From: a virus
Virus record (IMG/VR): IMGVR_UViG_3300047560_001242
Span: 1-24,078 of that record
DNA length: 24,078 nt
Direction: 5' to 3' (one strand)
Of this stretch, positions 4,325 through 24,078 are shown piece by piece. The translations under genes and the position numbers were made by a program. Under the pieces are notes generated by a model. The model was not told the origin of the DNA. It made no database searches and worked only from the letters and a program-made list of their open reading frames with translations. Numbering within the stretch: the stretch's first letter is position 1; every line of letters begins with the position of its first letter.

Positions 4325-5027
4325 ATCTTATTTGTTCCAATACATTTTTGGTTGGACGCCAACCACATGATAATAATGCTGTAGGATTGGCTTCAGTGTG
4401 AACAGCCTCGCCAGTAACAGATTGAATAGGTAATCTTTGGCCTGCTGCCTCAACTAAATCTATCACAGAAACAGGAGCGCCAGTACCGACATCTATTACG
4501 CCAGTCAACCTATGTTGTATTACACACTCTATGGCCGATACAACATCTGACACATGAGTAAAGTCTCGTGAGTGATTCGTCGCATATTTTGCACGACCAT
4601 TAATCAATTTATCATACATCATATCTGGACGTGAGTCAACGCCATACACAGTGTGAAAGCGCATCCCACAAGAGTTGTTGGGAGCAAGCACTTCTACTAC
4701 AGCTTTTGTAGTGGCGTATGGATTGTTGTACCATTGCTTCGCTGATGAGCTTGAGGCATAGGCAATGTATGATGTTTGCTTATAGTGTTCAAATAATCTC
4801 TTACTGACTTCTACATTGTTACGCCAATAGGGAATTGGATCGGCAATGCTTTGCCTCACACCAGCATTTGCAGCAAGATGAATTACAACATCTACATCCG
4901 GCAATACACAATCGTATAAATCAATACCATCTTTGATATCGATTCCTACAACATCATGGTCGGTCGAGAAGTGTTCATAAACGTTGCGACCAATAAACCC
5001 TCTGTGCCCGGTTACTAATATTCTCAT
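4302..5027 (-). CDS. Short NAD-dependent epimerase/dehydratase (extended SDR family)
   Basis: 241 residues. The Rossmann motif is GHRGFIG (7-13), followed by HLAANAGVRQS (50-60), a serine run ASSSS (91-95) and the catalytic pair Tyr104/Lys108 (YATTK). This is the layout of nucleotide-sugar epimerases such as UDP-glucuronate 4-epimerase and GalE-like enzymes. Family members usually exceed 300 residues, so this one is compact, with shortened loops before and after the YxxxK helix. The gene sits between gp47 and gp46, overlapping gp47 by 4 bases and gp46 by 23. The specific sugar cannot be told from the sequence. The truncated dehydrogenase at 364-1140 is a plausible pathway partner (inference). 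Confidence 0.88.
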   Translation of the reverse strand: MRILVTGHRGFIGRNVYEHFSTDHDVVGIDIKDGIDLYDCVLPDVDVVIHLAANAGVRQSIADPIPYWRNNVEVSKRLFEHYKQTSYIAYASSSSAKQWYNNPYATTKAVVEVLAPNNSCGMRFHTVYGVDSRPDMMYDKLINGRAKYATNHSRDFTHVSDVVSAIECVIQHRLTGVIDVGTGAPVSVIDLVEAAGQRLPIQSVTGEAVHTEANPTALLSCGWRPTKNVLEQIRYDIVRKT

Positions 5028-9552: not shown

Positions 9553-9578
9553 AAAAAAGGGCCGCATGAGCGGCCCTT
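9553..9578 (-). terminator. Rho-independent terminator after gp23
   Basis: A perfect 9-bp stem (9557-9565 with 9570-9578, core GGGCCGC/GCGGCCC) closes a 4-base loop. On the minus strand it is followed by a run of T ending at 9553, the two outer A-T pairs overlapping the run. It lies about 24 bases past the gp23 stop and should end the abundant capsid transcript. Confidence 0.92.
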
Positions 9579-9601
9579 GTAAAGATCTCTCTTAATGGAG
9601 A

Positions 9602-11000: not shown

Positions 11001-11008
11001 TATTTATA
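11001..11008 (-). promoter_or_regulatory. Late promoter TATAAATA for gp23
   Basis: Perfect match to the T4 late consensus on the minus strand, 50 bases before the gp23 ATG and just past the gp22 stop. The leader is longer than for the other late genes and A/T-rich, containing the palindrome TTACGTAA. Confidence 0.85.
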
Positions 11009-18641: not shown

Positions 18642-20321
18642 CTACTCTTTGGCCAACCAAGAGTCATCTGAAACAGCAATTGCAGCTCTAGGCCTCGTGT
18701 ACGAGAATCCTAACTGATCTTGCCACAACCAATTATCATCGGCAGCACTTACAGTTCGCTCATCTTCGGAAAGTTCTTGTCCATCATCTATCAATCCAAA
18801 CGGGGCCAAGTCTTCTTCGACCACCTTTTCTTGTAAGTTCATTACGTTTGCACGAATATCCATACTGGTCAATTCGCGCATGTATGGCTGGATCATCGCC
18901 CAAGCCAACAATACACAGCACATAACAAGGTCATCATTTCCGCTTTCAGCTTCGAATGAGTCTCCTTTTGCAACGAATCTATACATTTCGTTTAGCAAAT
19001 CTAAATCGTTTACTACAAGTCGATCCATTTCGACAAGCGTCTTGAAGTTGGCACATCCAAGCTTCTTGACCACTTTTGTAGTTTTAACACCAACACGCGA
19101 GTGGCCACCAAATCCTCCAGATATTGCTTGGCCCGTCTGTCCATCTAGTGCAGTGAACACGACGTTTTCATATTCTAAATCTTGGTGTAAGATGTCCGCA
19201 ATTTGTTTACCAACGTCGTTGGTTTCAACCAACACCAGCGCATTATTGTACAGTCTAGCAAAGTGATGAACATATGTTGGGTACAATAATGTGGATACCT
19301 CGTTGTTCCTATACACAGCTACCACATTATACGGTATCTCTGTTATATCAAAAACAACGAAAGCACTATAATCTTTTCCTGTACCTCTTGACACGTCCAC
19401 AACTATCATGTATAGTCGCTGTGCGGATGGTTCAGAATATATTTTAAAATCATCGGTACTTTTTATTGGGTACCTATACGGAATGGAGCGTAACTTGCTT
19501 CCGTTAATGAGTGTATTAGAGCTACCAACAAATTCACATTCAAACTCGACCCTAAATTGTTCAGGCGACGTGTTTCGAATCGTTTCTTCTTTCCACTTCT
19601 CATCTCTGCCTGGTACATCAGACCACGTAACCTCGATTCTTTGATAGTCGTTACGCTTTTCTTCACTATCCACCCACAACTTGTAAAACATATTCAATCC
19701 GTTAGGAGTTGAAGTTATCAACACTTTGGATGTTTTACCAGACGAAATTGTTGGATATACAGATGCAAAAAAGTCTTCTTGCAAGTTATTATCAACGAAC
19801 GCAAATTCATCAAGGTATACAAGATTGAAAGATCCACCACGAATTGCGCTTGAAGATGTAGCGGAGGCTAGAATGCGAGAACCATTTCCAAATTCAACAG
19901 TTCCCTTGTTCCATTCAGAGACTGGCTGTTTTAACCATTTTGGCAAATGCTCATATGCAAGTTGGATACGACCTACAATCTCAAGCGCTTGTGCACGCTT
20001 GTTAGCCAAAATAGCAGTGTTATGATTCTCATGGAATAAAGTATACCACAATATCAAACCAGCAATTGTTGTCGTTTTTCCACTTTGGCGTGGTAGCTTA
20101 CAAATAACAAATCGATTGTTTACGGATTTATCAATAATCTCTTTTTGATAATCATACAATGCAAAATTAATTAATCCACGATCGACGTGGACAATTTTTA
20201 CATACTTCTCAATAAAATATGTCGGACTACGAGAGCATTTAATGAATTCTTGTACTTGTTCAGCTGTGAAAGATATTTCTTCTTTAGCTGAAATTAAGTT
20301 TATGTTACCATTATAAGCCAT
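18642..20321 (-). CDS. 17: Terminase large subunit gp17 (DNA packaging ATPase and nuclease)
   Basis: 559 residues (T4 gp17 has 610). The ATPase domain has Walker A KLPRQSGKTT (75-84), Walker B LVYLDEF (167-173, Asp171 and Glu172) and the coupling motif STPNG (204-208). The RNase-H-like nuclease domain has Asp309 (VVDVSRGTGKDYS), Glu366 (LVETND) and Asp463/Asp464 (GNDDLV). It cuts concatemeric DNA and powers headful packaging through the portal. It overlaps gp16 by 11 bases and has no strong ribosome site of its own, so it probably relies on coupling to gp16 translation. Confidence 0.98.
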   Translation of the reverse strand: MAYNGNINLISAKEEISFTAEQVQEFIKCSRSPTYFIEKYVKIVHVDRGLINFALYDYQKEIIDKSVNNRFVICKLPRQSGKTTTIAGLILWYTLFHENHNTAILANKRAQALEIVGRIQLAYEHLPKWLKQPVSEWNKGTVEFGNGSRILASATSSSAIRGGSFNLVYLDEFAFVDNNLQEDFFASVYPTISSGKTSKVLITSTPNGLNMFYKLWVDSEEKRNDYQRIEVTWSDVPGRDEKWKEETIRNTSPEQFRVEFECEFVGSSNTLINGSKLRSIPYRYPIKSTDDFKIYSEPSAQRLYMIVVDVSRGTGKDYSAFVVFDITEIPYNVVAVYRNNEVSTLLYPTYVHHFARLYNNALVLVETNDVGKQIADILHQDLEYENVVFTALDGQTGQAISGGFGGHSRVGVKTTKVVKKLGCANFKTLVEMDRLVVNDLDLLNEMYRFVAKGDSFEAESGNDDLVMCCVLLAWAMIQPYMRELTSMDIRANVMNLQEKVVEEDLAPFGLIDDGQELSEDERTVSAADDNWLWQDQLGFSYTRPRAAIAVSDDSWLAKE

Positions 20322-20712
20322 TAGGATTCTTAATCATTTTCAACAATTCTGTTGCATTACCAACAAACATATTATTATTCACGGTAGCTGGACCCTTTTG
20401 TTCGTCTTGTTTGAGCAGCTCTTTTTTCTTCTTTGATAATTCGAGCAAGTCTTTATTAGCGTCAGCAACAGACTTGATTAAGGTAGCTACAACTTCATAG
20501 CTGCGCGCTTGTTGACTCATCCCAGCAACATCAAGGATACCGTTCAATGCTTCCTGCCCTTTCTCGATAATGGCAATCATATTACCACGAGCATATTCGA
20601 AGTCGTCCTCCACCTTATCTGGAGAAATTGCTTCAACTGGCCTATTTGGTATAGGCTCCAATTCAAGTGCAGTTGCTATTGGGTCGTTAAGTTTTGGTGA
20701 TGATGTATCCAT
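20311..20712 (-). CDS. 16: Terminase small subunit gp16
   Basis: 133 residues (T4 gp16 has 164). The central part (about 35-100) is helical: DDFEYARGNMIAIIEKGQEA, GILDVAGMSQQARSYEVVA and TLIKSVADANKDLLEL, typical of T4-like gp16 coiled-coil oligomers, followed by a lysine-rich turn and a short tail. It regulates gp17 and helps start packaging. It overlaps gp15 by 26 bases and gp17 by 11, so the three genes are translationally linked. Confidence 0.9.
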   Translation of the reverse strand: MDTSSPKLNDPIATALELEPIPNRPVEAISPDKVEDDFEYARGNMIAIIEKGQEALNGILDVAGMSQQARSYEVVATLIKSVADANKDLLELSKKKKELLKQDEQKGPATVNNNMFVGNATELLKMIKNPNGL

Positions 20713-22217: not shown

Positions 22218-22961
22218 TTATCCAATCATATCCATAACAGGCATAGAGTAGCTTGATATCATCTCAGCTTCGAGGCGTTTGATTTCTTCATCTGCTTCAT
22301 TGTAAATTTGTTGACCATTGAAAGTAACGCCGCCTGGTAACTGCATACCAATAAACTTCTTTAAATTGGTTCCCCACTGACGTTTAATTAGCTGTGTGGT
22401 ATATTGAGCCAACCACCTATCCTTCCACACGTCGCTGTAGACTGTAGGATCTACAATTTCATACGCCTCCACAATAATATATTGGCCAACATCTAGTTTG
22501 GTCCAATCCATATCAATATAAAGTTTGTTCTTATGTCGGCTATACCGTATTGGCTGACGACCAACGAGCACATCAGATACAGTAGCAAGATGCTGCATAG
22601 CCATATAATACGGAACGAGGCTAACTGAGGTCAGAGTATACAAATCATTCAAAGCAATTTGATAACGTATGTTAAAAATATCGCTAGCGCTGAGAGAAGG
22701 GTCGCCAATAGGAAAAATATTGACTGCACCAATAATATTTTCTGGCAACGTGATAAACTTGTCGGTAATATTCTGACTAGTTATTTGGTGTTTGTAGTAG
22801 GCTTTTTCTGAACCATCAAAATGATAGTCCCAATAGTAGCTGAGAGCTTGATCGACACGATCGTCGACCTGATCATCATCGACGTTGATCTCTATGACGG
22901 GCTTGCCTAACTCTCGTAGGCAATATTCTTTAAATTGTTCTCTAGATGCTGGTACAGCCAT
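22218..22961 (-). CDS. 13: Neck protein gp13
   Basis: 247 residues, shorter than T4 gp13 (309). Conserved features: SREQFKEYCLRELGKPVIEINVDDDQVDDRVDQALSYYWDYHFDG at the start, then ENIIGAVNIFPIGD, a HLATVSDVLVG helix, and WKDRWLAQYTTQLIKRQWGTNLKKFIGMQLPGGV, which marks gp13 clearly. It binds the portal and, with gp14, closes the filled head. AGGGG precedes the ATG and a perfect late promoter lies 19 bases upstream. Confidence 0.96.
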   Translation of the reverse strand: MAVPASREQFKEYCLRELGKPVIEINVDDDQVDDRVDQALSYYWDYHFDGSEKAYYKHQITSQNITDKFITLPENIIGAVNIFPIGDPSLSASDIFNIRYQIALNDLYTLTSVSLVPYYMAMQHLATVSDVLVGRQPIRYSRHKNKLYIDMDWTKLDVGQYIIVEAYEIVDPTVYSDVWKDRWLAQYTTQLIKRQWGTNLKKFIGMQLPGGVTFNGQQIYNEADEEIKRLEAEMISSYSMPVMDMIG

Positions 22962-22979
22962 ATGATCCCCTTTTTAGGG

Positions 22980-22987
22980 TATTTATA
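22980..22987 (-). promoter_or_regulatory. Late promoter TATAAATA for the gp13-gp17 block
   Basis: Perfect TATAAATA on the minus strand, 19 bases before the gp13 ATG. It probably drives gp13, gp14, gp15, gp16 and gp17, which overlap or nearly abut without another promoter. Confidence 0.85.
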
Positions 22988-22996
22988 AAGTGCAAA

Positions 22997-23623
22997 TTAT
23001 CGAATGATGACTTGCTTGCCTGGCTTTGCTGGAGTGCCGTCTGAGTTAAGAGGAATGTTAGGAACAACGAACGGTGCAACCAAATCTTCTCCAGTAACTG
23101 CAAATTTATGCTGTATATCAAATCGCAATTCCCCTGTCTTCGTGTCGGCTGAAATAGATCCAATAAATGGATTAAACACACTTTCCTGGATTGCGGGGTA
23201 CACGGTTCCTACCGTACCCTCGTTATTCAACCCGCTAGTATAGTCGTATGTCGTAAACACTACACTGGACGTCACCACCCTTTGTTTATTATACCATGAA
23301 GTATTATTAACAAACGACGATTTGATGGTAGTGTCAGTTTCTGAATTGATTGGAAATGCTCTGATTAAAGGATCCTGATCAATTTGCGCCGGAGCGGGTA
23401 CCGACTGATACGTTGTGTTGCTATACACCGCAATATCTAACACCCCCTGCTTGTATCCATTAATAGTAAAGTTGAGTGGCTTTGAATCGACTGTTTTAGT
23501 AAATTGTAAATTAGCAACCGGCATTTGACTGTTAAAGTATGCCGTATTACGAGCGTCCGGGCCCCCATCTACGTTATCATTAACGTAGATGGGAACTGTT
23601 ATAGACTGGCTCGAGTGACGCAT
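22997..23623 (-). CDS. Unrecognised, probable virion structural protein
   Basis: 208 residues, family not recognised. The sequence is beta-rich and polar with many Thr, Ser, Asn and Val (for example TSSVVFTTYDYTSGLNNEGTV and DTKTGELRFDIQHKFAV), as in phage tail or neck appendage proteins. There is no signal peptide, membrane segment or enzyme motif. It starts within the stop codon of the upstream gene (TAATG) and is followed by the gp13 promoter. A 13-bp perfect hairpin lies 30 bases into its coding sequence. A role in the virion is inferred from position and composition only. Confidence 0.75.
   Translation of the reverse strand: MRHSSQSITVPIYVNDNVDGGPDARNTAYFNSQMPVANLQFTKTVDSKPLNFTINGYKQGVLDIAVYSNTTYQSVPAPAQIDQDPLIRAFPINSETDTTIKSSFVNNTSWYNKQRVVTSSVVFTTYDYTSGLNNEGTVGTVYPAIQESVFNPFIGSISADTKTGELRFDIQHKFAVTGEDLVAPFVVPNIPLNSDGTPAKPGKQVIIR
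23564..23593 (-). other. 13-bp perfect hairpin at the start of a structural gene
   Basis: CCCATCTACGTTA and its exact complement flank a 4-base loop inside the coding sequence, starting 30 bases after the ATG at 23623. It encodes the PIYVNDNVDG region. No T run follows on either strand, so it is not an ordinary terminator. It could influence translation or transcript processing. Confidence 0.7.
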
Positions 23624-24078
23624 TATATGCTTTCTGTCACTGTACCAACAATTTTACCCGATATACTCGACACGATCTTAATACCAACGTTTGTAGATTG
23701 GCTATTGGACGTTTGAATAGTCTTAATATAGCTTCCATCGCTGAAGGTAATGCCTGGAGTACTTGTTGGACCAACAATACTTAAAGCAACATTCTTTTGC
23801 AACCTGTTGCCGAGATAGTTGTACACATCTACAGCCACATTAGATGTCAGCTCCGACCCAGCGTATGTAAACACCGTCTGAGCTGCCGTAATAGCTAATG
23901 TTTGTCCAACATCCACGGTCAGCAAGTCCATATAACAATTGTAGAGACCTCCACTTGCGGTAGTAGGATCCGTAAATTGTACAGCCCGACGACCCTCTTT
24001 GTCTTTAAACATACGCGGTGCTATGTACGGCATTGTCGACTGGTAGTTGTATAACCCAGTTGTGTTGTTGAGTGCATA
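23623..24078 (-). CDS. Probable structural protein, 5' end beyond the window
   Basis: The frame is open from the window edge to the stop at 23623-23625. An internal ATG exists at 24033, but no ribosome site precedes it. The frame upstream of it reads YALNNTTGLYNYQST without interruption, so the gene most likely starts outside the window. The visible 151 residues are beta-rich and Thr/Ser/Val-rich (DVGQTLAITAAQTVFTYAGS, VAVDVYNYLGNRLQKNVALSIVG), with no enzyme motif. It lies upstream of the neck genes, where marine T4-like phages carry lineage-specific virion proteins. The family is not recognised and a tail or fibre role is a guess. Confidence 0.7.
   Translation of the reverse strand, partial: YALNNTTGLYNYQSTMPYIAPRMFKDKEGRRAVQFTDPTTASGGLYNCYMDLLTVDVGQTLAITAAQTVFTYAGSELTSNVAVDVYNYLGNRLQKNVALSIVGPTSTPGITFSDGSYIKTIQTSNSQSTNVGIKIVSSISGKIVGTVTESI

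Follow-up and report, generated by a model that had tools for sequence, protein, structure and literature searches.

Gene organization upstream of the neck gene

The window, by which we mean the whole stretch of DNA analysed, is a virus record of 24,078 bases. PHROG matches identify it as a segment of a T4-type myovirus with its genes on the minus strand, including those for a gp13-type neck protein, head closure protein, tail sheath stabiliser, both terminase subunits, sheath, tube, portal, protease, scaffold, major head protein, a helicase and SbcCD-like subunits. Among annotated phages, Stenotrophomonas phage vB_SmaS-DLP_6 has the closest gp13 (67.2% identity). The neck gene (head-tail adaptor Ad2; phrog_211, E 1.6e-42) is the next gene of the late cluster, at 22218..22961 on the minus strand, and immediately upstream of it lies the 208-aa ORF that contains the hairpin studied here (22997..23623, minus strand). 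The start codon of this ORF overlaps the stop codon of the preceding one, the 3′ end of which occupies 23623..24078 on the minus strand, in the sequence TAATG. The preceding ORF is 711 aa long in a closely related contig (IMGVR_UViG_3300046804_002302, or L002), where the gene order is tail-fibre-type genes, 83-aa ORF, 711-aa ORF, 208-aa ORF and gp13. Searches with the 711-aa protein returned the same contig only, and neither PHROGs nor Pfam had a matching family at E 0.01; taken alone, its last 151 residues match phrog_20698, a family of unknown function (E 4.9e-5).

A motif scan placed a copy of TATAAATA, which we take to be the T4-type late-promoter motif, between the 208-aa ORF and the neck gene (22980..22987, minus strand). 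It is one of five in the window (at 11001, 12082, 14184, 18621 and 22980), every one on the coding (minus) strand, vs. 1.55 expected on both strands; five were reached in 2 of 100 shuffles. Four of them precede the major head, scaffold, sheath and neck genes, at 20-50 bases from the gene start. We also observed a 9-bp GC-rich stem-loop at 9557-9578, just past the major head protein gene (-19.7 kcal/mol at 9555-9594), which is probably the terminator of that gene. Among 40-nt sense windows it is less stable than the hairpin described below.

The preliminary description of this DNA had placed the hairpin in a structural gene, an assignment that our searches leave unestablished: the 208-aa protein had no match in PHROGs (E 0.01), Pfam (E 1) or PDB sequences (E 1). 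Its predicted structure is beta-rich and of low confidence (mean pLDDT 34.5, from a two-sequence alignment). The single relative found, 98% identical, is encoded on contig L002; annotated phages, viral contigs, genome contigs and the ORFs of gp13 loci yielded no other, and among the last of these nothing apart from the relative itself matched at E up to 1. A 22-residue match (E 3e-5) inside a 191-aa ORF of another locus, next to apparent siphovirus-type tail genes as read from the ORFs, was set aside as an unconvincing relative. Comparison with the one relative supports the coding status of the 208-aa ORF: the reading frame is unbroken, and of the codon differences 6 are synonymous and 5 nonsynonymous.

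Among 81 gp13 loci (relative included), 63 have an ORF of at least 90 aa ending near gp13, and these ORFs are of many unlike kinds; in the other 18 no such ORF was picked, partly because the contig starts there. Judged from their first residues, the genes in this slot in loci L003-L082 include fibre-like, glycosyltransferase-like, oxygenase-like and others. The 208-aa ORF is an orphan gene in a variable accessory slot before neck gene 13.

A perfect 13-bp hairpin near the start of the orphan gene

The hairpin lies at 23564..23593 on the minus strand and consists of two 13-nt arms (23564-23576 and 23581-23593) that are 100% complementary and separated by a 4-base loop. The 30 bases make up codons 11-20, which encode PIYVNDNVDG, the 5′ arm beginning at nucleotide 31 of the coding sequence. 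No T run follows the stem on either strand, so that it is not an intrinsic terminator. On each of these points (the perfect stem and its loop, its onset 30 bases past the start codon, the encoded peptide and the missing T run) the preliminary description proved accurate.

The 13-bp hairpin alone has a predicted stability of -19.3 kcal/mol. Two additional U-G pairs and a G-C pair would extend it in the mRNA to 16 bp (23561..23596, minus strand), giving -23.8 kcal/mol alone, and the hairpin region is the most stable of the 40-nt sense stretches of the window (-24.8 kcal/mol). In a 150-nt fold, the coding sense was more extreme than the antisense (z -5.47 vs. -4.06), and in neither sense did any of 200 shuffles do as well. 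Pairing between the flanks that would lengthen the helix further was not significant, 256 of 1000 shuffled flanks being as stable, and the extended flanking helix was dropped as a real feature for this reason.

A helix of this kind might act in RNA processing or stability, with a host double-strand-specific RNase cutting the stem or the stem shielding a decay intermediate of the late mRNA. An RNase processing site had already been suggested, and in principle the 16-bp helix, which is lengthened with gaps in some predicted folds, could serve as one. A cut here would, however, separate the start codon from its own gene, the flanking pairing is no better than in shuffles, and no Rfam 15 covariance model matched the stretch 22900-24078 at E up to 1. 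We regard this reading as improbable.

Frequency of comparable stems

The rarity of the hairpin was compared with dinucleotide-preserving shuffles of the window. A perfect stem of at least 13 bp with a loop of 3-10 bases was present in 41 of 7259 shuffled windows, about 0.6% per window, in agreement with the earlier claim that the stem is stronger than chance pairing usually gives. Related DNA (81 loci, 563,922 bases, near-duplicates included) contained nine 11-bp stems and one 18-bp stem, the latter being the only one of at least 13 bp and an apparent fold-back at the end of contig L032. Because stems of at least 11 bp are commoner in this DNA than in shuffles (10 in 563,922 bases, several of them from near-identical loci and one the contig-end fold-back), the true chance rate of such a stem is probably somewhat above the shuffle rate. 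The hairpin is rare for a single window, but expected when many windows are read.

Predicted stability gave a similar picture. In the 54 of 80 related loci left after removal of near-duplicates (373,622 bases, one strand, sense), a single window out of 123,854 was as stable as the hairpin, again at the L032 contig end. Post hoc, we also considered the possible encodings of PIYVNDNVDG: 2 of 24,576 give a perfect Watson-Crick stem (probability 1.6e-5 with the codon usage of the window), 64 of 24,576 give a stem if G-U pairs are allowed (probability 0.0022), and of 3000 synonymous encodings of the stretch drawn at random, 1 was as stable as the hairpin. The arms contain the rare codons CCC (7% of Pro) and GGG (8% of Gly), whose presence would be explained by the copying of one arm from the other, and equally by selection for pairing.

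The L032 stem raises the question of assembly or amplification artefacts. It is an 18-bp perfect hairpin at 4529-4571, and is most likely a fold-back artefact, since it sits at the contig end and similarity to relatives stops exactly there, in the loop. The same origin for the hairpin in the window is hardly credible: this one is internal, keeps the reading frame, and is shared with a second contig despite 11 differences over the 627 positions of the gene.

Distribution of the stem and its behaviour in relatives

The whole 30-mer occurs once in the window's own record. We looked for the stem elsewhere in two collections, using 10-bp exact arms with any 4-base loop, and recovered one viral contig, that of the near-identical relative, and none among the genome contigs; annotated phages contained no similar DNA. 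The proposal that the hairpin is a relic of a mobile or repeated element thus finds no support in this search. A TAATGA-like motif seen in the loops of several hairpins belongs to different genes and was taken as coincidence.

The same counts bear on a role at the level of DNA, either as a palindromic binding or recombination site or as a repeated palindromic element inserted in frame. The perfect symmetry and short asymmetric centre would fit such a site, and arms of this length presumably resemble those of tyrosine-recombinase sites. A single copy in the record, one viral contig, no genome contig and no similar DNA in annotated phages argue against it, however, and we consider it very unlikely.

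One of the 11 base differences between the window and the relative in this gene falls in the 30-bp element, vs. 0.53 expected (30 of 627 nt; one relative and very low power). With the little power that two sequences afford, the hairpin thus shows no sign of a depletion of changes compared to the surrounding gene. The difference is silent and one-sided, turning a C-G pair into U-G, so that the stem is kept; no two-sided change was seen. A second difference, in codon 4 and outside the stem, changes the amino acid and leaves a U-G pair in the non-significant flanking helix of the predicted fold. That both leave the predicted pairing possible through U-G weakly favours constraint.

We compared seven genes with those of the relative (4081 aligned positions, with small overlaps between genes entering twice). 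The 208-aa gene looks the least constrained of the seven, because all 5 nonsynonymous codon differences fall within it. In the same contig pair, the gp16-type small terminase gene (20311-20712) differs at 21 of 402 positions, all in synonymous codons, vs. 0 of 717 for gp14 and 1 of 813 for gp15; the gp16 divergence is probably a recombination tract.

As a control, we followed an 11-bp hairpin in gp17 (L003 8005-8035, L006 7270-7300), which is kept through three double silent changes. It was rejected as a covarying element: the stem is broken in two further loci that encode the same peptide (L026 and L027) and in more distant ones. Since it is broken in relatives with the same peptide, such stems can arise without selection.

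Relation of the hairpin to the translation start

The principal alternative to a neutral hairpin is a translational attenuator, a brake on coupled translation. According to this model, the 208-aa ORF is started by coupling, its start codon lying in a weak stem and overlapping the upstream stop codon. Near codons 5-6 the first elongating ribosome would then be held up by the hairpin, covering the start and delaying the next ribosome, so that the 208-aa protein is kept scarce relative to its neighbour. Several features of the junction fit. Besides the overlap of stop and start, a weaker stem is predicted to pair the start codon (23614..23641, minus strand; probability unpaired 0.27 for A, 0.06 for U and 0.03 for G). 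Among 26 genes picked manually from the ORF table, this one has the most structured start region (-13.4 kcal/mol) and also the most structured +20..+80 region (-24.8 kcal/mol). A structured start region would suit coupling by RNA unfolding as described in a review (PMC12548453), which also reports that coupling efficiency correlated negatively with structure immediately past the stop codon of the upstream gene. The stem is, moreover, kept in the single relative.

Other evidence argues against it. When the stem was forbidden in folding, the predicted accessibility of the start codon and of the sequence upstream did not change; with the same unpaired probabilities with and without the stem, the prediction is not that of a hairpin sequestering the start site. 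N-terminal structures within 13 nt after the start codon control initiation, according to a second-hand statement in PMC8223075, and the stem, whose onset is 30 nt from the A of the ATG, lies outside that footprint. Nor does the comparison with the relative show an excess conservation of the stem. What may remain of the brake proposed in the preliminary description is one that acts on coupling or during early elongation. We keep the attenuator as the main rival, but think it rather doubtful.

A more elaborate version, in which a two-stem intragenic device would set the dose of an accessory protein (the weak stem making the start dependent on translation of the overlapping upstream gene, and the 16-bp hairpin, just past the initiating ribosome, detaining the first ribosome as a shield over the start, with a low ratio to the neighbour as the outcome), appears unlikely to us. 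If the hairpin does function, it would show that the dose of a phage accessory gene can be set by structure within the gene itself, outside the range of the usual footprint rule. Frameshifting at the overlap was discarded: by eye there is no slippery heptamer, and a long distance separates the stem from the stop codon.

A probable mutational origin

The hairpin is real and occurs in two strains, but nothing we found points to a function. We think it fairly probable that it is a chance or template-switch product in a weakly constrained accessory gene rather than a selected RNA element. The inverted repeat would have arisen in the orphan gene either by chance or by template switching, through homogenisation of an imperfect palindrome. 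The hairpin would form in naked mRNA, but elongating ribosomes would melt it, and for this reason it would be tolerated, with little effect on expression. Template switching has been documented to make perfect stems (PMC8794818) and to change coding genes in yeast (PMC8604942).

A mutational origin is supported by the lack of change depletion, of copies elsewhere and of an Rfam match, by the unchanged accessibility of the start, by the concentration of nonsynonymous differences in this gene, by the shuffles with stems as long and by the gp17 control. Against it count the top stability in the record and, the L032 contig end apart, in related loci, the 1 in 3000 synonymous encodings as stable, the highly structured start region, and a position close to overlapping stop and start codons, a setting in which RNA structure may have effects. 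No relative or outgroup without the stem was found among annotated phages, viral and genome contigs or the ORFs of gp13 loci, so that template switching stands as a proposed mechanism. If the hairpin is not functional, it serves as a caution that the strongest RNA hairpin of a phage segment may be located within a gene and yet show no trace of selection; the apparent covariation in gp17, which disappears once more relatives are included, calls for the same care.

Comparison with known systems

The hairpin shares with template-switch (quasipalindrome) hairpins a perfect inverted repeat with a short loop that a single event could make (PMC8794818, PMC8604942); it differs in that no ancestor or outgroup lacking the repeat was found. 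Palindromes in mitochondrial coding sequences of Nematomorpha are likewise perfect inverted repeats in protein genes with both arms translated, but as described in PMC6649704 they are numerous and up to 284 bp long, whereas the phage has a single 13-bp repeat. The TAATG overlap and structured start region recall translational coupling (PMC12548453), although coupling is predicted here from sequence, and the strong hairpin is an extra element about 30 nt downstream. Finally, hairpins at T4 translation initiation regions, such as the gene e and gene 43 operators, are also phage mRNA structures near a start codon (PMC3014915). They involve or precede the ribosome binding site according to the same source, whereas the stem studied here is inside the coding sequence and leaves the predicted pairing of the start site unaffected.
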